A stretch of DNA of 64,000 nucleotides from Komagataeibacter xylinus NBRC 15237 (GTDB lineage: Bacteria; Pseudomonadota; Alphaproteobacteria; Acetobacterales; Acetobacteraceae). Position numbers and translations under genes: made by a program. The notes beneath the pieces are model-generated. The model did no database searches, had not been told where the DNA came from, and worked only from the letters and a program-made list of their open reading frames with translations. Every line of letters starts with the position of its first letter. The stretch's first letter is position 1. Where the stretch lies: positions 1 to 64,000 of the forward strand of contig NZ_BCTP01000012.1 in assembly GCF_001571345.1 (NCBI RefSeq). Direction: 5' to 3'. Below, in pieces: positions 18,825 to 46,992 of this stretch.

Positions 18825-18965
18825 AAGACCGCCCGCCAGCCCCTGACCAGCGCAGCCGCGTGTTCAATCCGCCTGTCTGCCCCCTGCCGCCCCATCTTGC
18901 CACGCCCCGCCACCTGCCTATGCTAGGCCCCGCTACAAGCGTTGTCCGCAGGGAGTTCGAGAGCA

Positions 18966-19985
18966 TTGGCCACACCCCAACCCATTGACACAAAGCTGAC
19001 CCAGGCCGCGGTTTTTCTTGTCCTGACCCTCAGCGCCGACACCGAGGTCGGCCCGCAGGTGCGCGACCTGATGGGAGACCTGTCATCACTTGTGCGCGGT
19101 GTCGGTTTCCGCATTGATGATGGCAGGCTCAGTTGCATAACCGGCATCGGGTCCGAGGCATGGGACCGCCTGTTCGGCGCACCGCGCCCGATGGACCTGC
19201 ACCCGTTTGCCGAGATCAATGGCGTGCACCACGCCCCTTCCACGCCGGGCGATCTTCTGTTCCATATCCGCGCCACCCGGATGGACCTGTGCTTTGAACT
19301 TGCAACCGCCATCGTCTCGCGGCTCGAAGGTGTTGCCACGGTGGTGGATGAAGTGCACGGGTTCAAGTATTTCGATGCCCGCGACCTGCTCGGTTTTGTC
19401 GATGGCACCGAAAACCCGGTGGACCAGCCCGCCCGTGATGCCACGCTCATCGGTGATGAAGACCCCGCCTTTACGGGCGGCAGCTATGTCATCATCCAGA
19501 AATACCTGCACGACCTGAAGAAATGGGATGCCATACCCACCGAGGTGCAGGAGCACATCATCGGCCGCAGGAAAGTATCGGATATCGAACTGCCCGAGGC
19601 CGCCAAGCCCAGCTATGCCCATAACGTGCTGACCAATATTGAAGAAAACGGCCAGCAGCTCCAGATCGTGCGCGACAACATGCCTTTTGGCACGGTGGGC
19701 ACGGGCGAATTCGGCACCTATTTCATCGGCTATGCCCGCTCGCCCGCGCGCATCGAGCGCATGCTGGACAACATGTTCGTGGGCCTACCGCCGGGCAATT
19801 ACGACCGGCTGCTTGATGTGAGCACGGCGGTGACCGGCAACCTGTTCTTCATCCCCACTGCTGATTTCCTTGATGCCGCACCCGACCTGCCCGCGCCGCA
19901 GGCGAGTGTTGCAGCCGCCCCGCCCGCGGCACCGCAACCCGTGGCGCAAGCGGCCGGCTCGCTTGGCATCGGATCATTGAAGTAA
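18966..19985 (+). CDS. DyP-type haem peroxidase with encapsulin cargo-loading peptide
   Basis: A 339-residue dye-decolourising peroxidase. The distal motif GFVDGTENP supplies the catalytic Asp, the proximal haem histidine is likely in KPSYAHNV, and GTYFIGYARSPARIERML carries the distal Arg region. The C-terminus is an Ala/Pro-rich linker ending SLGIGSLK, the known short peptide that docks cargo inside family 1 encapsulins. The encapsulin gene begins 12 bases later. Start: a TTG at 18966, 9 bases after GGGAG. An in-frame TTG at 18942 is less well placed. The protein should be packaged in the shell and act on peroxides. Its physiological substrate is unknown. Confidence 0.95.
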   Translation: MATPQPIDTKLTQAAVFLVLTLSADTEVGPQVRDLMGDLSSLVRGVGFRIDDGRLSCITGIGSEAWDRLFGAPRPMDLHPFAEINGVHHAPSTPGDLLFHIRATRMDLCFELATAIVSRLEGVATVVDEVHGFKYFDARDLLGFVDGTENPVDQPARDATLIGDEDPAFTGGSYVIIQKYLHDLKKWDAIPTEVQEHIIGRRKVSDIELPEAAKPSYAHNVLTNIEENGQQLQIVRDNMPFGTVGTGEFGTYFIGYARSPARIERMLDNMFVGLPPGNYDRLLDVSTAVTGNLFFIPTADFLDAAPDLPAPQASVAAAPPAAPQPVAQAAGSLGIGSLK

Positions 19986-19997
19986 AGGACACCAGAC

Positions 19998-20792
19998 ATG
20001 AACAACCTGCACAGACACCTCGCCCCCGTTTCATCCACTGCCTGGACCGAAATCGAGGAAGAAGCCACCCGCACCCTGCGCCGCCACCTTGCGGGGCGTC
20101 GCGTGGTTGATGTTTCCGAACCCAAAGGCACGGCCTTCGCCGCCGTGGGCACCGGGCGCGACCGGCGCATCGATGCACCCACCGACGGCGTGCAGGCCGT
20201 GATACGCGACGTGCTGCCGGTGGTGGAACTGCGCGTGCCCTTCACCCTGTCACGCGCGGAAATCGATGCGGTGGAACGCGGCGCGCGCGATGCCGACTGG
20301 CAGCCGGTCAAGGACGCTGCCAGAAAGATCGCCTTTGCCGAGGACCGCGCCATTTTCACCGGCTACGGCGCAGCCGGCATGAAGGGCATCGCGCAGGCGA
20401 CATCCAACGCCCATGTCAAGCTGCCCGCATCGGTCAGGGATTACCCGCAGGCCTTTGCCGATGCCCTTGCCGCGCTACGCCTTGCGGGCGTCAACGGCCC
20501 CTATGCCATCGTGCTTGGCGCGAAGGCATATGAGGCGGTAAGCGGCGGCGATGACGCGGGCTACCCGGTGCGCAAGCACATCGAAAGCCTGATTGACGGC
20601 AAGCTGGTCTGGGCGCCCGCCATTGAAGGGGCCTTTGTCATCTCGCTGCGCGGCGGCGACCTGCAGCTTGATATCGGGCAGGATTTCTCGATCGGCTATC
20701 TGGCCCATACGGCTGACACGGTCGAACTTTACCTGCAGGAAAGCTTTATCTTCCGGGTACTGACCAGCGAGGCCGCCGTCGCCCTCGACTGA
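19998..20792 (+). CDS. Family 1 encapsulin shell protein (linocin M18-like)
   Basis: A 264-residue HK97-fold shell protein, the usual size for T=1 encapsulins. The N-terminus MNNLHRHLAPVSSTAW, the segment HLAGRRVVDV, and the C-terminal VELYLQESFIFRVLTSEAAV match the family closely. It self-assembles into a hollow protein compartment and holds the DyP peroxidase encoded directly upstream. AAAGGA precedes the ATG. The tight DyP-encapsulin pair is a known arrangement in actinobacteria and some proteobacteria. Confidence 0.97.
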   Translation: MNNLHRHLAPVSSTAWTEIEEEATRTLRRHLAGRRVVDVSEPKGTAFAAVGTGRDRRIDAPTDGVQAVIRDVLPVVELRVPFTLSRAEIDAVERGARDADWQPVKDAARKIAFAEDRAIFTGYGAAGMKGIAQATSNAHVKLPASVRDYPQAFADALAALRLAGVNGPYAIVLGAKAYEAVSGGDDAGYPVRKHIESLIDGKLVWAPAIEGAFVISLRGGDLQLDIGQDFSIGYLAHTADTVELYLQESFIFRVLTSEAAVALD

Positions 20793-35100: not shown

Positions 35101-36491
35101 TCGGCAGGGGTGACGGTCACCTCGTAGGTGGCGGGATAATCCGGGCCAGTCGGCACTTCATCCTCGCCACGCGGCGAGGTGATGATACCGGCGCTCACCT
35201 GCACGATATTCTGGTCAACGCTATTAGTCACGACCGAACCCTGGATGGTCGGGTCGGTGCCGGGATCATTGAGCGCATCGGCGCCATACTGGTAACCACC
35301 AGCCGCGGCGATGGTAACGGGGGCGCCGGCACCTGTGGGCGCATCGACGGACTCGACCGTGTTATTGGCAAAATTCGCCGTAAGCGTGAGGGTTGGCTGC
35401 TTGGGCGTGTAACTGCCAAACGGCAGGGAAACCACATACATGGTATCGCCCGCCTTGAAGCCCGCAGGCGCCGTGACAAACTGCGGCTTGCCATCCGTGC
35501 CGCTGCTGTAGGGATTATAGGCCCCGATCTTGCCATCGACATCCACCAGCGTGACAGCCTTGGCGGACAGGTCCTGGCCCAGATAGGTTACGGAGGTCAG
35601 CGGGGTATCCTGCGTGGCGTTGGTCGGGGCGAATATCTCGACAAAGGGCGCGTAGCCCACGCCATTGGACGCATTGTTGGCAAAGGTAATGGTCTGGGAA
35701 AAGGCATTGCCCAGCAGGTTGCTGGTATCGGTGGAACTTGAAATGGTGACGGTGGCCGTCGGGCTGTCGAGCACACTGTCATAACCGGCCTCGGCCGCAA
35801 GCGAGAAGGGTGCATCCACGGCATTGCCATCCAGCCCGGCCGTGCGCTCCAGGGTCCAGTCACCCCCCAGCACGCCAAGGCCCGTGGCATCGGTCGAGGC
35901 GGCGACACCCGCGCCGGTCAGGGTATGCAGGTCCTCGACCAGCGCCTGACCGGCAGCCCCCTGCCCCACATCGCAGCCCCAGAACAGGATCTGCCCCTTA
36001 GCCCCCAGCGCATCGCCCCACTGCGCCACCTGCGTACTGTCCGCCATGAGGGTGGCGGCATTGATGGTGGCACTGCCAAGCTCGATCTGGCCTGCCTGCC
36101 CGTAGGTGAGGAAGCTGACACTGTTGAGGTTGTGCTGGTGCGACAGCACGCGCGAGACGACGGACATGCCATCACGCGTATTGTCCACCACCACCACGCC
36201 CACGTTATTGCCTAGCGAGGCGGTGAGTTCACGCCAGTCACTGACGCGGGAATCCACAAAGACGATATCGGTAAAACTGTCTTTTTTTCCACCATTGCGC
36301 TCATGTACCGACTTATCTGTACCAGTGGTTGCAGGTAAATCCGGCAGGGAACCAACGGATTCATCCACAACAGGGGCATCATGGGCATTTTCCCCCTGAT
36401 TCTCGTGATGGTGTCTGTCTGCCCCATGGTGATGGGAGACATGCGCCACGCTGCCATCAAAGAGATATCTCTGCTCAAGAATCAGACGCAT
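26136..36491 (-). CDS. Giant DUF4347 repeat surface protein (adhesin-like, 3451 residues)
   Basis: The N-terminus MRLILEQRYLFDGSVA matches the LEPR-type start of giant exported proteins. There is no Sec signal peptide. Residues about 75-213 form a DUF4347 domain (IVFVDSRVSDWRELTASLG, ILFWGCDVGQG, LGGDWTLE). Then come many DUF11/Ig-like beta domains to about 2350. At least five units centred near residues 2414, 2604, 2804, 2967 and 3147 carry GTWxYSTDGGKTW or a close variant. A cadherin-like domain lies near 3265-3365, and the C-terminal tail is basic (GKKGLRAQMRQIGQRA). No RTX nonapeptide repeats are seen. The divergent operon at 36842-42905 probably exports it. The stop codon overlaps a dispersed repeat, so the end may be slightly altered. 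Likely role: attachment or biofilm matrix (inference). Confidence 0.9.
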   Translation of the reverse strand: MRLILEQRYLFDGSVAHVSHHHGADRHHHENQGENAHDAPVVDESVGSLPDLPATTGTDKSVHERNGGKKDSFTDIVFVDSRVSDWRELTASLGNNVGVVVVDNTRDGMSVVSRVLSHQHNLNSVSFLTYGQAGQIELGSATINAATLMADSTQVAQWGDALGAKGQILFWGCDVGQGAAGQALVEDLHTLTGAGVAASTDATGLGVLGGDWTLERTAGLDGNAVDAPFSLAAEAGYDSVLDSPTATVTISSSTDTSNLLGNAFSQTITFANNASNGVGYAPFVEIFAPTNATQDTPLTSVTYLGQDLSAKAVTLVDVDGKIGAYNPYSSGTDGKPQFVTAPAGFKAGDTMYVVSLPFGSYTPKQPTLTLTANFANNTVESVDAPTGAGAPVTIAAAGGYQYGADALNDPGTDPTIQGSVVTNSVDQNIVQVSAGIITSPRGEDEVPTGPDYPATYEVTVTPAEVTQNNAIKDMTLNVALPDSVNYNNSPITLTGADGSTISGTATYVPPADGSKEGGSVRITLDSVAYSATAPYKIDIPVYVGQTDAAGNSILNSSGGNSSGGTTAPTTIPGATISYTGSWTPPVAEGQTATAVALDQTVDTSPTTFNAKAFAVQETDTITNADGSATGLPAGQVMPGDIITHDIHIENSDYYSSTGMVVTTTLSDGQALQAGTSPTFTYTDATGTSHTVQLGSAYWSATPGDNGQTVVKMNIAQYLADNSLPAMGAGKQGTISYASTVSDNYTATNTPVTEGDTVSSSVSVSAQATGLDGTTSQVQDGSGSTLSVPEGTTGLKIVAINGVAVEGTDTPVIHAGDKVTYEAIYTLQTGTYTDLNLSSYLPLPLYDTSNPTGTGDSAFTAADSTDPTQQAAGTYSVVSVPNGVDPGKVTVSTQSANNSISFDMGNSNTLATNDAGKQVAVLFTLNATSSPFADGLRLTSQEQSTLTNGQNAQTAQSTLQSITVAEPAAEIKTGVVSVMNGASTDKSVTYTPQTPGEGTDTNPTTTFNAAGSDGGAYASVPAGGVSGLGAVNDLNATGAEGGDTVRIASTVENTGSAGMYDLTVSGTLPAGFSAGDVKNFQITRADGTVVYSSAADATTAANSYFTTGGLTIPATSATDPVLAKGQDLTITYDLALPTGQNLGDTLVASATVVNFGNSAGAVAQGNGFVTNGVPLGGQASDLTDPASVTLQVPTISKSIGPSNLPENDGVDAATSSGTIVSGETRTTTITVTVPEGTLSNGNGDVTVVETLPAGMDYAGGFTATLTGATASGADASGNLPAPTAVRNADGTTTLTFDLGKTVTNSSSTPGTITLAYNGYYGENNAPANAATITSSAVLNYSAHDDTSTIAEQAGPADVTVTERKPSLTETITDDTNGQPLYSGQQVTYTLKLGNNGDVTAYDVDHAITLPSDLTGVTITGGGQTITVAAGQTSVALSQLASLAPTDAPVIYTITGTVASDLPAGTKLAVTDNYTWHSAPRSNEFMPPSGTPSGSGDAPVTPQDVPEAFKGTASDAPAVGNFTSVLDIVGESNGTTSGISPTKPVTAADTVPGDQVTLQGEVSIPEGQNQDVTLTLKVPDNVQLDPTSLRLLLASPNGEVTSSGFGSAEQLAEGTTSAVQMNGKTFTLTDAAEAALNGNGAAITGVTTDSSGQTVLTINLGTVTNNDTSSVPNYAIIQVAGTVLNTTANKDGNPAFSESLTASTSPTPTSTQSSAASIVTETVREPTVTLGKAVTAIDYTDDTVTFTDTLTNTGDATAYDVALNDPLVAGQETVAGAVAAKGAGTVDTTINASGSVAAADANGVTTNGLTLAAGASETVTYTVKLSDLTQGLAQTTTSVTWESLAGATPAASGGTAQSRDGSAGQAGTAGSNPADTYERSVTMGLGTLSGQIWQALGNTPGTYDSAIDTPLNGVGVTVTARGQDGTYATGLVQTGITTNASGDYAALVPVYGTPTASIAEITVPTTGGTDGVPASETEVYNHDGAVTSATTAVSPDADSASGMSATHADLAYELPDTAPTITGWQDTTPHVATAGTATAIGDGGVAVDDHELDTLTTKESGTYTYAGTTLTVQRYVDGKATPSATDSFGATGTDVSMAGGQVSVNNTVIGTYTDTGGVLQFTFNTNATKTSIATLAQDLTYTYTPTATDPATQLDVTLGATFSDGNTDLAGQQATTGAQGTGGVQTSAPMFTHVSVGGTTFATTFTEPNDTPAAASATALGSYVSVEDASGTGAGSIQKVVVQVGSATAEDVLAATTAGGITASLDSATGALTLTAGTATTLKNWQATLASLTYYDSSDTPIEGTRNVSISVYENGASAPIVTNGTIAVTAANDSPVLDPSVPVSLNDAQEDSAPPQGAVGTAVSQLVGYAGATGGAGNVTDPDGAGLTGQGAAGATSLPGIAITSADTTHGTWWYSTDNGKTWTEFAGSGASNAVGGGNALHLIDNGQARVYFQSTDPNWNGKVNDALTFRAWDQFDGAANGSISALPATVGLGTGTNTPGSAYSAATDSVALMDDNVNDAPNVVADNTTPGATPVTGDQPASWKVTEDTPQVTSVQGLFGSYFSDQTDQQHSATNPDGSTANTMAGVAVVGYTPSAAGTWSYSTDGGKTWTQLSAAVSTTNALVLSKDAQLQFTPAANYNGQPVSGDDLKVVLIDNSGASSGSPALVGANGQALTTTDGTPLTGAALDSGTMAIAGADVSTRGGQTALSTGTVDLSTAVTPVNDPPTMAAGPYTLPDVTSNSADSANTGTTVAALYSNAVQDGTDAQQNATDPTGSTADHLAGVAITGNTANPATEGTWQYSTDGGKTWTDVPANVSGSNAVVLGDQAKVRFDPVPNFTGTPGGLTTQVVETSADVPLTGTSDGVATSVTGQALDGTATALTGVNITQMQQDHPNGSVNTNSQPLDIKVNPDAHTAVNIPPGTEDQPGTKQTVSQLFPASDAPNGVGGVAITGNATPASEGTWMYSVPGGTAQALPTGLSTTSAVVLPGDAQIWFQPAPNFNGDPSSISFTATVIDNTTANAFTGADGKAVAGNAITGVATGVDVSNTGGGTALDVVPVQVSTSVEQVNDAPVASGSATLPSVDTSNQQVRGDSVSSLFGPTFSDQADQQHSASNPDGSVADHLQGVAIVGNTANPATQGTWQYSTDGGRTWQNVSTSVSATTALVLPASAELHFAPVTGFTGTPGGLSAALVETNSTLATGTAAQVADVSALMADETSHVSQTTVALNTNVTQQEGNPALSGSTLNNDLSSSDLLKTSVEDGFENEFQRGFGVAHQTWIRGTSLYRFVTTNQKYDIDVPAGAFISSDGTDLNLTITARQAGGAPLPDWVSFDADRRCFSMIAPDEASGSIDLALIGRDEYGHEAEVDVHVVIGHEHPAWEMGNDPSIPQAVERAMQVVEQDMNWLAFNPDFHRGNHHANEPTPGKKGLRAQMRQIGQRAAYARSRDLVNH

Positions 36492-36841: not shown

Positions 36842-38503
36842 ATGGTAAATCCTGTGACGCATCAGCTTATCCGTGGCAAATTACGTCTGGCTTCCTGCGC
36901 TGCGCTTTCGACAGTCATGCTGCTGGCGGGGTGTGGCATGCGGCCCAAGCCCATGCCCCTGGCCGATCATATCAAACGTGCCGATGCCGATCACGCCACG
37001 ATCGAGGCGCGTTATCTGCCGCTCGATGGCGACCTGACACTGGGCACCGCCATCGCGCGCGCGCTCAAGTTCAACTATGACTCACAGGTCGCCAAGCTTG
37101 AGATCAACCAGCAGGAAAAGCAGCTTGATCTGGCCCTGATGCAGATGCTGCCGCACCTTGCGGCCGATGCGGGCTATACTGACAGAAGCAACAACAATGC
37201 TGCTGAAAGTATTGATGAATTCAGCAACCAGCGCTCGCTGGATTATTCCTATTCCGAAATGCCCAGCCATGGCAGCGGGGATATCAGCTTTTCATGGAAC
37301 GCCATGGATGCGGGGATCAGCTATTTCTCCGCCCGCCAGCAGGCTTTCCGCGCGCTGATTGCCGTCGAGCGCCGCAGGCGCGCCATCAATGATCTGGTCA
37401 AGGCCGTCACCACCAATTACTGGGAGGCTGCCGCAGCCCAGGTCATGCTGCCCCGGCTCGACCCCATCATCCACGATGCGGAGACCATGCTGGCGGCATC
37501 GCAGGATGCCGGTAACGCGCACCTGCAGTCCCCGCTGACGCTGCTCGATTACCAGCAGAACATCATCCAGATCCTGGGTGAGATGCGGCGCATCAAGGAT
37601 GAGCTGGTTGGCGCGCAGATCCAGCTCGCCTCGCTCATCAACGTGCCGCAGGATGAAAAGCTCAATCTGGCCACCCACCCGCAGGATGTGCAGCCGCTGG
37701 GCAACCTCGACATTCCCACGCTGGAGCGCATGGGGCTGGTGATGCGCCCCGAACTGCGCATGGAAGTGTACCAGCAGAAGGTTGACCGGCAGGATGTCTA
37801 TAAGGAAATCCTGAAGATGATGCCCGGCATTGGCGCCATCGGGAACGGCAACTTTGATTCGAATGCCCTGCTCTACCACCACATCTGGGGGCAGATCGGG
37901 GTGCGGGCGACCGTCAACCTGATCAACATGATCCAGGGCCCGCGCGCCATTGCTGTGGCCAAGGGCAATGTCAAACTCTCGGAAATGCGCCGCCTTGCGC
38001 TGAGCGTCGCCATTCTGGCCCAGATCAACCTGAGCGCGCAGAAATACGTTACGGCGGTGGATTTTCTCAAATCCTCACGGCAGATCAACGATGTGAGCCT
38101 GCAGATGGAGCAGCTTGCCGTCTCCGCCTCCGCCGCAGGCGCGCAGTCCGAGGCCAATCGCGTGCGCCACCAGATGGCCGCCCTGCTCGGCCAACTCGAA
38201 TACAGCCGCAGCCTTGCCCATACCCATCAGGCGCTGGCCAACCTGTATGCCTCCATCGGCGTGGACCTTGTGCCCGCCAATGCCGATATTCAGGACCTCA
38301 GGCACCTGACGGCGCAAGTCGAGCATTCCATTGCCCTGTGGGAAAACGGCCGCCTGCCTGACCTGACGCTGCCCGATAATGTCAGGAAACCGGATGCGGG
38401 CACCAGCACGGTACCCGTCGCGGTACCGGTGCCGCAGGCTGCGCCGCCTTCCACCCCTGTTGCACAGACGGATGCGGCACAGCCTGCCGTTACACCTGGC
38501 TGA
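36842..38503 (+). CDS. TolC-family outer-membrane lipoprotein
   Basis: A 553-residue outer-membrane efflux protein. The signal peptide ends with the lipobox LLAGC (around Cys31), so it is lipid-anchored. The body has the two TolC-type coiled-coil repeats, rich in Ala, Gln, Leu and Glu (KLEINQQEKQLDLALMQM; AQSEANRVRHQMAALLGQLE), and a Pro/Ala-rich tail. It should form the outer-membrane channel. It is first in a four-gene operon with three HlyD-type proteins and is divergent from the giant DUF4347 gene, its probable cargo. No clear ribosome site precedes the ATG. Confidence 0.88.
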   Translation: MVNPVTHQLIRGKLRLASCAALSTVMLLAGCGMRPKPMPLADHIKRADADHATIEARYLPLDGDLTLGTAIARALKFNYDSQVAKLEINQQEKQLDLALMQMLPHLAADAGYTDRSNNNAAESIDEFSNQRSLDYSYSEMPSHGSGDISFSWNAMDAGISYFSARQQAFRALIAVERRRRAINDLVKAVTTNYWEAAAAQVMLPRLDPIIHDAETMLAASQDAGNAHLQSPLTLLDYQQNIIQILGEMRRIKDELVGAQIQLASLINVPQDEKLNLATHPQDVQPLGNLDIPTLERMGLVMRPELRMEVYQQKVDRQDVYKEILKMMPGIGAIGNGNFDSNALLYHHIWGQIGVRATVNLINMIQGPRAIAVAKGNVKLSEMRRLALSVAILAQINLSAQKYVTAVDFLKSSRQINDVSLQMEQLAVSASAAGAQSEANRVRHQMAALLGQLEYSRSLAHTHQALANLYASIGVDLVPANADIQDLRHLTAQVEHSIALWENGRLPDLTLPDNVRKPDAGTSTVPVAVPVPQAAPPSTPVAQTDAAQPAVTPG

Positions 38504-38600
38504 TCTGCCATTTTGAATATTATTACTAATAAGTAATGTTTTAAGGCCCCATCACCCTGGCGGGAGTGGTGCCTTATATTCCGGAAGGCTGGTTGCATAT

Positions 38601-39422
38601 ATGCGTATATATTCGTTTATCTCGGCACTGTTGCTTGGCCTTGCACCCGGCACGGTCCTGGCCCAGGCAGCACGACCGGTCGCACCCGCTGACATGACAC
38701 TGACCGCCACGGCACCTGCCCAGCAGCCTGATCTTGCGCCCACGTCGGAGCCGGACAGCACGGCGGTCCATGCCCCCAGCGTGCAGGTCACCGCACCGGT
38801 GAGTGCGCAGATCAGCGCCAGCATGTCGGGCCAGCTTGAAAAATTTCCTTTGCGCGACGGTGACCATTTCCACAAGGGCGACGTCCTTGCCGAGTTCCGC
38901 TGCGGCCAGCAGAAGGCAACCCTTGCCCACGCGCATGCCGAATACATCAAGCGCCGTGGCCTGCTGGATGTGCAGAACAAGATGAAGGCGCTCGGGCAAT
39001 GGAGTGTATCGGACCTGCGCTCGGCCGCGGCCGATGAACAGGCAGCCAATGCCGATCTGGAAATGGCCGGCGCCGTTGTGGCCCAGTGCAAGGTCGAGGC
39101 CCCGTTTGACGGGCGTGTCTCCAATACCACGGTGCATAATTACCAGTATCTTTCAGCCGGAACCCCCATGCTGGAAATACTGGATGATACCTCGCTTGAA
39201 CTGTCCATGATCGTCTCATCCATGGAACTGCGCCATCTGCAGCCCGGCACACCGTTCAAGGTTCATATACTGGAAACGGATGCCACCTACCCGGCAACCG
39301 TCAGCCGCATTTCGGGCAAGGTTGATCCTGTCAGCAAGACCATCAAGGTCTATGGCAAACTGACCCACCCCGCCCCTGACCTGCTACCGGGCATGACAGG
39401 AGAAGCCCAGTTCGGTCAATGA
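38601..39422 (+). CDS. Periplasmic adaptor (HlyD/RND membrane-fusion family)
   Basis: A 273-residue exported protein. The signal peptide (ISALLLGLAPGTVLA) is followed by a Pro/Ala linker, a lipoyl-like half (APVSAQISASMSGQLEKFP; APFDGRVSNTTVHNYQYL), a short hairpin and a beta-barrel (ELSMIVSSMELRHLQPG). It is shorter than the usual 370-400 residues and lacks a membrane helix. It should bridge inner- and outer-membrane parts. It follows the TolC gene by 97 bases and precedes the GAF-HlyD gene by 20. Confidence 0.85.
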   Translation: MRIYSFISALLLGLAPGTVLAQAARPVAPADMTLTATAPAQQPDLAPTSEPDSTAVHAPSVQVTAPVSAQISASMSGQLEKFPLRDGDHFHKGDVLAEFRCGQQKATLAHAHAEYIKRRGLLDVQNKMKALGQWSVSDLRSAAADEQAANADLEMAGAVVAQCKVEAPFDGRVSNTTVHNYQYLSAGTPMLEILDDTSLELSMIVSSMELRHLQPGTPFKVHILETDATYPATVSRISGKVDPVSKTIKVYGKLTHPAPDLLPGMTGEAQFGQ

Positions 39423-39442
39423 AGGTGGATGGCTGACGGATC

Positions 39443-40780
39443 ATGACCTCCTCCCCGCCTGATCCCTTACGCCTGCAGCAGGGCCGGCAGGCCGCATTGC
39501 TGCGGCTGTCAGCCCTTGTGCATCTGTGCGAGCGCCTGCGGACCTGCCCGCCTGATGAACTGGATTTCGTGCTGGTCAACGAAAGCCATAATCTCCTTCC
39601 CTACCAGCAGGCCGCCCTTTACCGCACGGACAAGGCAGGGATAACCGCCATATCCGGCACGGCGGTGTTCGATTCCGCCGCCCCCTATGTGCGCTGGCTG
39701 GGCCGGGTGTTCGAGAGCATCACGCCACAGGCTGAGGCCAGAGCGCTTGATGTCGCGACCCTGCCTGCCACGCTGCGCGATGAATGGGCGCAATGGATGG
39801 CCCCTCATGCCGTGCTCCTTCCGCTGCTTGGGCGGCATGGCCCGGTGGGCACGCTGCTTGTCGCGCGGGCAGATGCATGGACACCGCCCGACATCCAGGC
39901 CCTGTGCATGATTGGCGGCGAGTATGCGGAAAGTCGGCAGCTTATCGCCTCCCAACCGCCCAGGCCACGCGATACACGAATGCGCAGACGCATCGGCGCC
40001 ATACTGGCGGCTGCCGTGCTGGTGGCGTGCTACCCGGTCCATTCATGGGTTCTGGCCCCGGCTGAAGTCGTGCCGGTTGCCCCCACCTATGTGCGCGCGC
40101 CCTTTGCCGGTATCGTCCACCAGCTTGATGTCGCTCCCAATACAGTCGTGCAGGCCGGTACACCGGTCGTGGAACTGGAGCGCGCGCAGCTTGAAAGCCA
40201 GTACCTTGTTGCCCGCAAGGCGCTGGAAGTGGCCCGCACCCAGTATGATGAAGCCATTCAGGCAGGCATGCTTGATGCCAAGGCCCGCGCGCAGGCTGGT
40301 GAACTCAAGGGCCGCATTGACGAGGAAGCGGCCCAGATGCGCTACCAGAGCGAACTGCTGCACCGCGCCACCCTGACCGCCCCGATAGACGGGCTGGCGC
40401 TTTATAACGATCCTTCCGAATGGATAGGCCGCCCGGTGGAAGCTGGCGAACGCATTCTCATGGTTGCACCCGCCCTGTCGCGCCGGATCGAGATCCGCCT
40501 GCCCGCAACCGAGGCCGCACATTTCGCCCCCGATGCGCGCGTGCGTTTTTTTGACAATGTGCACCCAAACCATCCGGCAGAAGGGCATCTGGTCTTTACC
40601 TCCTACGCCAGCACACCGACCCCTGCGGGCACGCTGGCCTATACCCTGCGTGCCGACCTCGATAGCGACATCCGCCTTGGCCTGCGCGGCACTGCGCGCA
40701 TCTACGGCCCACGGCACATGCTGGTGCTCTGGGCCCTGCGCAAACCACTGGGCGTGGTCCGGCAATGGCTTTCCTTCTAG
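39443..40780 (+). CDS. GAF-like domain fused to a HlyD-type adaptor
   Basis: A 445-residue membrane protein. Residues about 15-170 form a cytoplasmic GAF-like domain (LSALVHLCERLRTCPPDELDF, split; MAPHAVLLPLLGRHGPVGTLLVA, split), one membrane helix spans about 183-200 (IGAILAAAVLVACY), and the periplasmic rest is a HlyD adaptor with lipoyl halves (YVRAPFAGIVHQLDVAPN; TLTAPIDGLALYND) and a short coiled coil. A GAF sensor on an adaptor is unusual and could couple export to a cytoplasmic signal or bind the M50 partner. It ends 19 bases before the M50 gene. Confidence 0.8.
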   Translation: MTSSPPDPLRLQQGRQAALLRLSALVHLCERLRTCPPDELDFVLVNESHNLLPYQQAALYRTDKAGITAISGTAVFDSAAPYVRWLGRVFESITPQAEARALDVATLPATLRDEWAQWMAPHAVLLPLLGRHGPVGTLLVARADAWTPPDIQALCMIGGEYAESRQLIASQPPRPRDTRMRRRIGAILAAAVLVACYPVHSWVLAPAEVVPVAPTYVRAPFAGIVHQLDVAPNTVVQAGTPVVELERAQLESQYLVARKALEVARTQYDEAIQAGMLDAKARAQAGELKGRIDEEAAQMRYQSELLHRATLTAPIDGLALYNDPSEWIGRPVEAGERILMVAPALSRRIEIRLPATEAAHFAPDARVRFFDNVHPNHPAEGHLVFTSYASTPTPAGTLAYTLRADLDSDIRLGLRGTARIYGPRHMLVLWALRKPLGVVRQWLSF

Positions 40781-40799
40781 CTGACCCGGCAGACGACGC

Positions 40800-42905
40800 A
40801 TGAGCACCCCCGCCCCCTGGCCTGCCCTGCGTGATGACCTTGAGCTGTTACGGGGCCCCGTCGTGACCGGCGCGCCCACATGGAGCCTCTATGACCCCGC
40901 CCGCCACCGTTACGTGCGCCTTGGCAGCATGGAAATGGAAATCCTGCAACGCTGGGACCTGGCTGACCCGGACACGATTGCCCGCATTGTGCATGAGCAG
41001 ACCACGTTTGATACGCAGTCGGCCGATGTCACGGCCTTTGCCGCCTTCCTGCAACAGGCCGGGCTGACGACGGCGCAGACCAGCGCAGACACCGCTTTGC
41101 TGGCCCGGCAGGCGCGCAGGCCGCCCTTGCTGTCATGGATCCTGCATCATTATCTTTTCCTGCGGGTAAGGCTGTGCAATCCCGATCCCGTTCTCAAACG
41201 CTGCGTGCCGCTAACGGACTGGCTTTTTACCCGCAGGTTCTGCATCGGGCTGGCACTGGCAGTGGGGTTGGCGGTCATTCTGGTCGTGCAGCAATGGAGC
41301 CTTTACGCTGCGGGGTTCATGCATCTCATCACGCCGCAGGGCGCAATCGGCATTGCCCTGGCGCTGACATGCAGCAAGATGGTGCATGAACTGGGCCACG
41401 GCATCGCGGCACGGCATTTTGGCTGCCGGGTGCCTGCCATGGGGGTGGCCTTTCTGGTCCTGTGCCCTGTTTTATGGACCGATACCACCGATGCATGGCG
41501 ACTGGTCCGTGCGCGTGACCGGCTGGTGATCGACTGTGCCGGCATGGTGGCCGAAATCATGCTGGCCACGCTGGCCACCATTATCTGGAGCGTCATACCC
41601 GATGGCCCGCTGCGTGATGGCCTGTTTACGTTAAGCAGTTCGACATGGATCCTCACCCTGTCGGTCAATCTCAGCCCGCTGATGCGGTTTGACGGGTATT
41701 ATATTCTTTCCGACCTCATGGGCATTCCCAACCTGCAGGAACGCGCCTTTGCGTGGACACGCTGGCGCACCCGAAAGTTCCTGTTTGGCATGGATACGCC
41801 CCCGCCCGAAGTCTTTCCCACATATCGGGGGCTCATGCTGACCGGCTACAGCATGGCAACATGGCTTTATCGTTTTTTCCTGTTCACCGGGATTGCACTG
41901 GTTGTCTATCATGCGGTTTTTCCCGCGCTGGGCGTGGTTCTGATGGGCATTGAAATCTGGTTCTTTATTGCCCGCCCCATCATGGGAGAGCTGGCGCAGT
42001 GGGCACGCCAGGCCCTGCATGCCCCCGGTAGCCGCCGCGTACACATTACGGGTGCGGCGTTTGCCATATTGATTGCCCTTCTTTTACTGCCATGGAGCCA
42101 CACTGTTCGCGCGCCTGCCGTATTGCGGGCGAAAGGGCAGAGCATGCTTTACACGCAGGACCCTGGCCAGGTGGTGCGCCTGCTGCCCACAGGCAGCCTG
42201 GTACGGGCAGGCGAGACCGTGGCCGAACTCCGCTCTCCCCAGCTTGATCATGACCGTGCCGTATCAATTGCACGACTGGCAACGCTGGAGGCCACATTGT
42301 CGGAACGACTGTTTGGCGTGGAAGATACCGCCTCGCTTGATGATACGCGTGACAGGATCGAGCAGGAAACAGCCGAGCGCCTGCGGGCTGAAGCCGCGAT
42401 AAGGCAATTGACCCTCACCGCACCCTTTGACGGCATGCTGGTGGATGTTCCACCGGAAATCCATGTCGGTGATACATTGAAACAGCATGATTATATTGGC
42501 TCAATCATAACCAGAGACCACGCCACTATTGAAGCATATGTGTATGAAACGGACATCAGCTTCATACAGCCCGGAGCAGAGGCCAGTTTTATGACCGATA
42601 GCCCTGGTGCCAAGCAGATTACGGGGCATGTACAGTCGATTTCGGTAGCATCAGTCCCTGAAATCGATGCGCTGGAACAGGCCTCCCTTTATGGTGGACA
42701 TATCAAGGCACACCGGGACGAGACCAGCCACCGGCTCGTGCCGGAAGAAGCGGTTTATCAGGTTATTATCCTGCCTGATGGGCCGCTGCCACCAATCAGG
42801 CGGCGCATCAGGGGAATGGCCCGCATACACGCCACCGCCACCAGCTTCTTGCAGCGGACCTACCGCAAGATTGTCTCGGTCTTTATGGGAGAAGCAGGAC
42901 TGTAG
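40800..42905 (+). CDS. M50-type membrane metalloprotease fused to a HlyD adaptor, with PqqD-like N-terminus
   Basis: A 701-residue polytopic protein. Residues about 25-92 (WSLYDPARHRYVRLGSMEME, LQQAGLT) look like the small PqqD-type peptide-binding wing domain. Residues 140-400 are a site-2-protease membrane core with zinc motif HELGH at 196-200 and the third ligand region NLSPLMRFDG at 290-299. After a last helix (about 419-432) comes a HlyD-like periplasmic part (APAVLRAKGQSMLYT; TLTAPFDGMLVDVPPE) with a coiled coil. All zinc ligands are present. It is the last gene of the operon. It may process or pull the giant protein into the channel, taking the place of an ABC exporter (inference). Confidence 0.87.
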   Translation: MSTPAPWPALRDDLELLRGPVVTGAPTWSLYDPARHRYVRLGSMEMEILQRWDLADPDTIARIVHEQTTFDTQSADVTAFAAFLQQAGLTTAQTSADTALLARQARRPPLLSWILHHYLFLRVRLCNPDPVLKRCVPLTDWLFTRRFCIGLALAVGLAVILVVQQWSLYAAGFMHLITPQGAIGIALALTCSKMVHELGHGIAARHFGCRVPAMGVAFLVLCPVLWTDTTDAWRLVRARDRLVIDCAGMVAEIMLATLATIIWSVIPDGPLRDGLFTLSSSTWILTLSVNLSPLMRFDGYYILSDLMGIPNLQERAFAWTRWRTRKFLFGMDTPPPEVFPTYRGLMLTGYSMATWLYRFFLFTGIALVVYHAVFPALGVVLMGIEIWFFIARPIMGELAQWARQALHAPGSRRVHITGAAFAILIALLLLPWSHTVRAPAVLRAKGQSMLYTQDPGQVVRLLPTGSLVRAGETVAELRSPQLDHDRAVSIARLATLEATLSERLFGVEDTASLDDTRDRIEQETAERLRAEAAIRQLTLTAPFDGMLVDVPPEIHVGDTLKQHDYIGSIITRDHATIEAYVYETDISFIQPGAEASFMTDSPGAKQITGHVQSISVASVPEIDALEQASLYGGHIKAHRDETSHRLVPEEAVYQVIILPDGPLPPIRRRIRGMARIHATATSFLQRTYRKIVSVFMGEAGL

Positions 42906-45756: not shown

Positions 45757-45930
45757 CCACCATGTTCCTGTCGCACTTATTGTTTATCAAACAAATATTC
45801 ATTGCATGAATATTTAATCACGACATTCCGGAAAAATAGATGCCTAAAGCCGCCCTGCCCGCAGGGATGTCTTCAATATGTGTAAGATACGCCTGACTGC
45901 GGACGTATCCCACACAAGCAGTACGCCAGT

Positions 45931-46861
45931 TCAGATCACGGCAGTCAGCAATGACTGATCCGCAAAATGGGCAGCAAGATTTTTTATGACCAGTTCTCCC
46001 ATGGCCAGCCGCGTTTCCACGGTTGCGCTGGCACGATGAGGCTGCAGTACCGCACGGGCAGAATGGCGGAGCGGCGCAGGTACATCGGGGTTCATGCTCG
46101 AACACGTCCAACGCCGCTCCACCGAGTTTTTCCGCATCAAGCACCTGTATCAGCGCCTGTTCATCCACGACCGAACCGCGGGCGACATTGACCAGAAAAC
46201 CATCGGCCCCCAGCGCTTCCATAATCTCCCGGTTGACCAGATGCCGCGATCCCGCACCACCCGATGCCGCGATGACCAGAATGTCGCTACCCCGTGCCAA
46301 TGTCAGCAGATCAGGCACAAAAGCATAACCCTCCAGTTCAAAATCCCGCAGGTCGGTATAGGATACAGGCATGGCAAAAGCCTGGGCGCGATGCGCAATC
46401 GCACGCCCCACCCGGCCCATGCCTATGATCCCGAGCTTCCTGCCGGTTACCTTGCGCCCGAGCGGCAGAGCGGGTTTATGCCCCCAGGCCCCGTCACGAA
46501 CATACCGATCCCCTGAGGGCAGCCCGCGCAGAAGCGACAGGACAAGCCCCATGGCCATATCCGCCACATCATCGGTCAGGACACCCGGCGTGGTGGTGAC
46601 ATGGATATCGCGCTGCCTGGCTTTTTTCAGATCCACAGCGTCCGTGCCGATCCCGTTTATGGCAATGATCTCGAGGGCAGGCAGGCTGTCCATGACGGCT
46701 TCAGGCACGCCAGTCGCGCCGCCTGTCGCAATACCGCGTATCCTGCCCGCACTCTCTTTCAATTGTGCAACCGAGGTAAAACGATGCACGGTATAGGCAG
46801 CATCAAGCTGCTTCTCGATTTCGGGCATCATGGGTTCAATCAGCAGGATTTCAGGTTTCAT
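45931..46861 (-). pseudogene. Frameshifted D-2-hydroxyacid dehydrogenase (2-ketogluconate/glyoxylate reductase type)
   Basis: An NAD(P)-dependent enzyme of about 309 residues when restored. The NAD motif is GIIGMGRVGRAIA. The catalytic Arg is in VNVARGSVVDE and the Glu in DVFEHEP. Directly after this the frame is broken: one extra base in the four-G run at 46087-46090 (+ strand) sends the frame to 45818 with unrelated residues. In the restored frame the catalytic His appears in QPHRASATVETR and the protein ends SLLTAVI at 45931. As read, the product lacks the His and should be inactive. The ATG at 46861 is preferred to a TTG at 46882. The neighbours suggest a keto-gluconate role. Confidence 0.85.
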
Positions 46862-46992
46862 GATTTCAGGTTTCCAGTTCAAGCAAAATGGGCACTTACA
46901 CTGCCAATAGCGGGAAATCGGGCCATAATTTCGGTATCATGCCCGACAAAAACGGTTTCGGTCTGCACTTTCCATAATGAAATAAAAAACAA

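Follow-up and report, generated by a model that had tools for sequence, protein, structure and literature searches.

The four-gene operon described here probably serves the export of one giant protein, by a route in which an RRE-like domain would guide the substrate, an M50 protease would process it and HlyD- and TolC-type parts would carry it; we put the probability of this reading at about two in three. The operon lies in the window, which is the whole 64,000-nucleotide stretch of Komagataeibacter xylinus DNA that was analysed, from a genome of 3.6 Mb. Its co-directional genes, at 36842-42905 (+), encode in order a TolC-type factor, an HlyD/RND-type adaptor, a GAF-HlyD protein and an M50-HlyD protein (Table 1), and the giant protein begins with MRLILEQRYLFDG, after which DUF4347 follows. 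Computationally, the N-terminal domain of the M50-HlyD protein has an RRE-type fold, the protease motifs are intact, the operon is conserved and the N-terminal motif of the giant is tightly associated with the system. A family scan of the ten ORFs neighbouring the operon found no peptide-modifying enzyme.

Table 1. Features of the operon and of the giant gene (positions in the window)
Feature	Position	Strand	Remarks
TolC-type outer-membrane factor (OEP)	36842..38503	+	PF02321 4.6e-21
Periplasmic HlyD/RND-type adaptor	38601..39422	+	RND_mfp 103.8 bits, above cut-off 94.9
GAF-HlyD protein	39443..40780	+	GAF match weak: 16.3 bits against a cut-off of 22.4
RRE-like - M50 protease - HlyD adaptor fusion, 701 aa	40800..42905	+	Peptidase_M50 186-282, HlyD_3 538-616, HlyD_D23 463-615
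PqqD/RRE-like wing domain, residues 8-92	40821..41075	+	predicted fold, structure and profile comparison
Zinc motif HELGH, residues 196-200	41385..41399	+	HExxH in 80/80 related loci
DG of second M50 active-site motif (SPLMRFDGYY), residues 298-299	41691..41696	+	DG[YF] in 80/80 loci
HlyD-type adaptor region, residues 463-616	42186..42647	+	HlyD family matches
Giant protein, 3451 aa	26136..36491	-	divergent from the operon
Proposed leader motif LEQRYLFDG, giant residues 5-13	36453..36479	-	leader profile E 3.0e-12 in own genome
DUF4347 domain behind the leader, giant residues 76-241	35769..36266	-	PF14252 E 6.6e-46; caspase/CHAT-like fold predicted

Two other observations concern the remainder of the window. 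At 18942-20792 (+), a Dyp-type peroxidase gene is followed by an encapsulin gene (Linocin_M18, E 1e-95), and from their sequences the pair likely forms a cargo-loaded nanocompartment. At 45818-46882 (-), the frame of a 2-hydroxyacid dehydrogenase departs from its family towards the C-terminus, the Pfam match stopping near residue 266 of 354, and a frameshift is possible.

The N-terminal domain of the M50-HlyD protein

At the level of sequence, the kinship of the N-terminal domain with known families is distant. Residues 1-104 match no Pfam or NCBIfam family at E<=1, and because the window domain does not reach the cut-off of PF05402, it is named RRE-like here and not classed as PqqD. Among 76 related domains, six match PqqD at E<=1, and PqqD is the commonest family there; the best of these values in the window type (type A), 0.0061, is weaker than the 1.1e-4 of a relative of the sister type (type B, described below), which itself lies just below the cut-off. 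A profile-profile comparison of the domain with 25 PqqD-type sequences gave a probability of 48.8 (P 1.8e-4) over 62 collinear columns, while the maximum probability in 30 column-permuted controls was 1.0. Additionally, a PF05402 search of 80 genomes of the phylum returned eight matches within frames of 718-768 aa, seven of them above the cut-off, and each of the eight frames proved to be related to the window protein (E 1.5e-34 to 3.3e-50). When four of these RRE-M50 frames were scanned with hmmscan, two had a PqqD match above the cut-off and the other two fell 0.5-0.7 bits short of it, the match always lying within residues 37-102. Since sequence searches of the PDB were nearly empty, with no match to the domain profile and just three weak adaptor matches in a phmmer search with the whole M50-HlyD protein, a comparison of structures was needed.

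The AlphaFold2 model of residues 1-104, built with 75 relatives (75 N-terminal domains from 80 loci, five near-identical ones being omitted), has a pLDDT of 85.8 and a pTM of 0.76. Its strands (15-22, 25-32 and 37-41) and helices (43-49, 57-67 and 74-86) follow one another in the order βββ-ααα, and residues 8-92 are predicted to form the corresponding winged fold. In a Foldseek search of the PDB, this model had 630 matches at E<=10 and none at E<=0.001; E values above 0.001 are common with domains of about 85 residues. Ranks 1-6 were lasso B1 RRE-leader complexes (6jx3, 5v1u and 5v1v; best E 5.2e-3, probability 1.00) and ranks 7-8 the sactipeptide maturase 5why/5wgg. VIA-align placed the same B1 entries first, with Z of 11.2 (6jx3), 10.0 (5v1u) and 9.8 (5v1v) over 80-84 residues, followed by 8hkr (7.3) and the JmjC hydroxylase 4bu2 (7.0); lower rows held 5wgg/5why, TruD, MccB and PqqD, interspersed with the carbamoyltransferase GdmN (6.4). 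The main text of a 2025 RRE survey gives the βββ-ααα order as a requirement for an RRE, has 8hkr among its reference structures, and reports RRE-like folds on JmjC proteins as well as RRE-carbamoyltransferase fusions (PMC12710340).

The original prediction had likened the first about 90 residues to the PqqD/RRE wing domain and proposed a structure prediction compared with PqqD as the check. The model bears out the RRE-type fold, with PqqD itself (3g2b) as a lesser match (Z 5.8 over 56 residues only). As modelled, the domain is thus like RREs in general and nearest to those of lasso B1 proteins, more than to PqqD proper. By hydropathy, it precedes the first membrane segment of the M50-HlyD protein (about residues 147-165), and it would lie on the cytoplasmic side.

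The M50 protease

The membrane part of the same protein carries both motifs of the M50 (site-2) proteases, HExxH and (N/S)PxxRFDG. Across the 80 type A loci, HExxH is written HELGH in 62, HEFGH in 13, HEMGH in three, HEIGH in one and HELAH in one. Because HExxH and the DG motif (DG[YF] in type A) are kept in 80/80 type A and in 8/8 type B proteins, the conserved residues point to a site that is probably active. M50 proteases work in or near membranes. The proposed leader of the giant is not hydrophobic, which counts against the reading preferred here.

Conservation of the operon and the source of energy

Relatives of the operon partners, each distinct from the M50 gene, occur widely across the 80 loci: TolC in 64, HlyD in 68, GAF-HlyD in 78 and all three in 63, where the counts include short contigs and each ORF was assigned to its better match. 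By tblastn, relatives are also found on 68 plasmid records, including 18 from Escherichia and 8 from Citrobacter. The order giant, TolC, adaptor, HlyD-family gene and M50/HlyD recurs on plasmids of E. coli, Kosakonia and Niveispirillum; the E. coli giant has ALESRQLFDGAA near its N-terminus and the Kosakonia giant SLEPRMLFDGAI.

Several of these plasmids hold further features. On an IncF-type E. coli plasmid (L030, 2340-22091), the operon is complete, its giant is Ig-like and 4459 aa long, and an IS element lies on either side. Small genes annotated as tail fiber adjoin the operon in Kosakonia (three genes; L031, 22125-24232) and Niveispirillum (one gene; L034, 3510-4409). In the Magnetospirillum plasmid pMSR-1 (L033, 14499-22085), the operon is accompanied by a short ELWxxDGT protein, and the leader motif was not found in 11 kb of forward frames.

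A dedicated ATPase was sought near the type A systems, in the 80 loci and in the window's own genome, and none was found. No SecA-like ORF occurs in any of the 80 type A loci as far as these reach, and the window locus has no adjacent secondary SecA_DEAD; the only SecA match of its own genome lies on another contig, in a 953-aa frame. Likewise, no ABC domain is present in the four operon genes or, at the cut-off, in the ten neighbouring ORFs, and an ABC-signature ORF appears somewhere in 7/80 type A loci. Of the three components of type I secretion (ABC transporter, HlyD and TolC), the window operon therefore has HlyD and TolC only.

The proposed leader motif and its association with the system

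In an alignment of 22 N-termini, the L, E, R and D of LE-x-R-x-x-F-D-[GA] are invariant. A leader profile of 28 positions (LExRx[LM]FD[GA]A type), made from the N-termini of system neighbours, matched in 77 of 249 genomes of the phylum at E<=0.05. Genomes were counted as having the system when the protein matched at E<=1e-120, a threshold that falls within a gap from 6.8e-173 to 5.5e-96, and 70 did so. At E<=0.05, the leader is found in 69 of these 70 genomes versus 8 of the 179 without the system (Fisher 3.7e-51, a value that ignores kinship, the 249 genomes not being independent), and seven of the eight have E values of 0.008-0.045. At E<=1e-3, the figures are 63/70 and 1/179, the single genome without the system being G246, which is 57% complete. 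The 70 system genomes represent 34 genera, with the leader in 33. Within the genus of the window (19 genomes, its own included), the protein is present in ten, nine of which also have the leader and a DUF4347 giant; the nine genomes without the M50-HlyD protein have neither leader nor DUF4347. This contrast within one genus lessens the worry about kinship.

The coupling extends to copy number and position. Nine type A genomes consist of no more than two contigs; together they hold at least 11 system proteins and 12 leaders at E<=1e-3, and 11 of the 12 leaders lie within 20 kb of a system protein. Among all 123 leader matches at E<=1e-3, 47 are within 20 kb of the system and 5 are farther away on the same contig among the matches listed, and the remaining 71 are on contigs without a system protein among the matches listed; the counts of system proteins in the 249 genomes are lower bounds, as no more than four M50 candidates per genome were scored and G065, G075, G247 and G279 have further matches. 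Within the 80 loci, the motif is borne by 22 of the 55 ORFs that measure 800 aa or more and have their N-terminus inside, and 29 further ORFs are cut, a count that is poor evidence compared with the preferred genome scan, many of the ORFs without the motif looking unrelated or like shadow frames.

A few genomes depart from this pattern. In G007, of the same genus, neither leader nor giant accompanies the protein, whose match ends 95 bp from the end of the contig, and G260 has the system without the leader. Outside the genus, G022 (480 contigs) has the leader and DUF4347 and no protein at 1e-20, a leader match at E 0.02 occurs in G019, and no leader reaches the threshold used in G033, which encodes two distant M50 relatives.

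Structure prediction and hydropathy of the giant agree with this picture. In the model of its residues 1-245, DUF4347 is ordered and segments 1-39 and 45-69 have a pLDDT below 50, so the motif stands in a stretch predicted to be disordered, and the proteins that share it differ in what comes behind; it is probably a signal and not an element of the fold. No 19-residue stretch of the 3451 residues has a mean hydropathy of 1.4 or more, and no Sec-type hydrophobic segment is thus found in the giant. A C-terminal signal of the RTX type or a Sec signal was also considered for the giant and rejected, as there is no hydrophobic stretch and no RTX-type family among its Pfam matches. The suggestion that the N-terminal motif is a secretion leader recognised by the domain has accordingly found partial support: the pairing of motif and protein is about 1:1 in near-complete genomes, and the RRE-like fold, the near-perfect association across genomes and the coupling within the genus all agree with it, while binding of the motif by the domain, the need for the motif in export and the export of the giant itself are what this reading predicts. 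Overall, these results suggest that the motif acts as an address label, sending giant proteins along a secretion route that is as yet undescribed.

A sister type with a SecA-like protein

The relatives with PF05402 matches belong to a second type of locus. Both of the two that were scanned encode SecA_DEAD (E 3.7e-96 and 4.1e-100), the SecA signature TGEGKT occurs within a long frame in 8/8 type B loci, and one locus scanned further also holds GAF-HlyD, HlyD and a ShlB/FhaC-type pore. The type B locus is the one described in the main text of Kamneva et al., 2015 (PMC4452313), with a secondary SecA_DEAD, Peptidase_M50/HlyD, GAF/HlyD and HlyD, for which a secretion-related role was proposed and the biological role was called completely unknown. 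Three type B giants begin with LEPRFLLSGEA, LEPRFMLSGEG and MEPRYLLSGEG, continue into DUF4347-like sequence and match LEPR-XLL (NF012209) at 25-29 bits, against a cut-off of 17. In G065, a 14,920-aa frame starting with LEPRFMLSGEG lies on the same contig as the operon and is long enough to extend back to it (L236). With G065 counted on the strength of this length, a LEPR-XLL start would be present in 4/4 type B loci in which the N-terminus was reached.

The same partition is seen among genomes. Nine have a lower-scoring M50 relative only (the locus was inspected in one, G106), and LEPR-XLL is found in 8/9 and the type A leader in 0/9. Among 170 genomes with neither system, LEPR-XLL occurs in 8 at E<=0.05 and in 1 at 0.01. 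At 0.05, weak cross-matches to LEPR-XLL are seen in 53/70 type A genomes, some of these genomes having type B too, and the dialects therefore overlap in score. The type B leader reads LLSG/LLSA where that of type A reads FDGA, and the type B N-terminal domain is nearer to PqqD than the type A domain. Leader dialect and domain subtype thus vary together.

Proposed mechanism and the reader of the motif

We infer the topology, the binding and cleavage of the leader and the direction of transport as follows. The RRE-like domain, on the cytoplasmic side, would catch the disordered N-terminus of the giant through LExRx[LM]FD[GA] and bring it to the membrane part. There the M50 site would probably cut off or clear the leader, by analogy with what has been proposed for the daptide RRE-M50 protease, and the HlyD parts of three proteins together with TolC would form the conduit to the outside. 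Binding of the leader is assigned to this domain because of the known role of RREs and because there is no other obvious receptor.

It is also conceivable, though rather unlikely, that the motif is an export signal read elsewhere, such as by GAF, by the membrane part of the M50 protein or, in type B, by the SecA-like protein, and that the RRE-like domain persists as a leftover with a regulatory or structural role. The association between motif and system would fit this equally well. The co-occurrence of the operon partners is silent on which part reads the motif. A separate GAF-HlyD relative is moreover the partner found in nearly every locus (78/80); hydropathy predicts one membrane segment region (about 186-210) in the GAF-HlyD protein, part of which probably lies in the cytoplasm as well. 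While the window domain has diverged enough to miss PF05402, it has nevertheless been kept, with R11, D32 and W52 invariant across 76 domain sequences, and its best fold matches are leader-bound RREs. The sister type, in addition, differs in both leader dialect and domain. Recognition by the RRE-like domain is therefore preferred.

DUF4347 at the head of the giant

An improbable alternative gives the motif a role in the structure or maturation of the giant's head instead of in targeting, where it could serve, for example, as a substrate site for a caspase-like DUF4347. The two do travel together, as DUF4347 stands behind the leader in 25/27 type A and 10/17 type B proteins and its predicted fold is caspase/CHAT-like, but the motif is also found without a DUF4347 match in 2/27 and 7/17, and DUF4347 occurs alone, without system or motif match, in G029 and G034, both outside the genus. 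The type A heads came from 27 of 30 loci (one near-duplicate and two missed by the regex were omitted) and the type B heads from 17 of 30 (six regex misses, one short and six with an FD/LLD-type motif were omitted). A His/Cys pair, the putative dyad, is present in 23/27 type A heads; in four proteins, that of the window and three of its sisters, Tyr replaces His and Cys is retained. DUF4347 may therefore be inactive in these four, and self-cleavage is unlikely in the window protein.

In a comparison of folds, DUF4347 was closest to Tce1 (9qpe, Z 12.6) and SAVED-CHAT (8tl0, Z 9.2), followed by legumain and caspases at Z under 8. In K. melomenusus (L037, 5526-6440 and 1-5856, -), the head of the giant stands apart from the remainder in a frame of 305 aa, and the gene looks broken; G015 likewise has a 305-aa frame at the head of its giant.

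As for the domain itself, many of the VIA-align rows that follow the B1 complexes are RRE-bearing too (8hkr, 5wgg, 5why, 4bs9, MccB and 3g2b). This speaks against the very improbable case that the winged helix serves DNA binding or dimerisation, merely resembles an RRE and binds no peptide, for although RREs resemble DNA-binding helix-turn-helix domains (main text of PMC7470986) and transcription factors appear in the list at Z 3-5, the RRE-leader complexes stand on top, 2.5 Z units above the next row, and the domain is fused to a membrane protease.

Comparison with known systems

Export guided by the RRE-like domain has partial counterparts in several known systems. The daptide protein MpaP/DapP likewise has an RRE N-terminal to a site-2-type M50 protease, and the passages of PMC10036551 on this N-terminal fusion to an intramembrane site-2 protease assign to it the RRE-dependent removal of the leader. 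The family of the daptide intramembrane metalloprotease (NF041824) matches residues 34-384 of the window protein with 150.7 bits (E 6e-44), below its cut-off of 300, and the window protein is accordingly not counted in that family. Unlike the daptide protease, the window protein has an HlyD adaptor behind the protease and HlyD, GAF-HlyD and TolC partners, and its substrate would be a 3451-aa protein instead of a short peptide. Another M50 protease, EpeP, is thought to perform both cleavage and export, according to the part of PMC10885120 that concerns it. In the peptidase-containing (C39) PCAT exporters, an N-terminal part likewise recognises and removes an N-terminal leader, and the passages of PMC8277102 on PCATs with an active C39 give their cargo as about 10 kDa or less; in the window system, by contrast, RRE and M50 replace C39, the operon has no ABC ATPase and the substrate is a giant.

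The lasso B1 RRE proteins, which provide the nearest solved fold, differ from the window domain in being discrete small peptide-maturation proteins, and about 12-20% of the aligned residues are identical. The locus of Kamneva et al. has the set of M50-HlyD, GAF-HlyD and HlyD in common with the window operon, whereas the window type is without SecA_DEAD and with TolC; the main text (PMC4452313) mentions none of PqqD, DUF4347, leader, adhesin, giant and LEPR. The LEPR-XLL domain (NF012209, LEPR-8K) is likewise a short N-terminal motif of large proteins, and it has been named as an N-terminal domain of an 8000-aa protein. Its profile (cut-off 17) has no match in the window giant or its genome, which places the giant outside this family, and against five other type A heads it gave one match above the cut-off, two below and two without a match; the window-type leader has FDGA in place of LLSA/LLSG. 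Within open-licence PMC main texts, neither the combination of PqqD, M50 and HlyD nor an account of the export of LEPR-XLL or DUF4347 proteins was found, and the main texts of the 2020 and 2025 RRE surveys (PMC7470986, PMC12710340) do not mention M50, HlyD or secretion.

Implications

The balance is about even on whether a separate secretion class exists, where giant surface proteins are picked by an RRE-M50-HlyD protein, and not by an ABC transporter, through a short N-terminal leader with the two dialects LExRx[LM]FDGA, used with TolC, and LExRxLLS[AG][DE], used with a SecA-like ATPase and an FhaC-type pore. The RRE-like domain and the two leader dialects join LEPR-XLL, the DUF4347 giants and the M50-HlyD-GAF locus. 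A system without its own ATPase raises the question of the driving force. If such a class exists, it would extend the recognition of leaders, known from peptide natural products, to proteins thousands of residues long, and RRE domains would move beyond peptide modification to bulk protein secretion.
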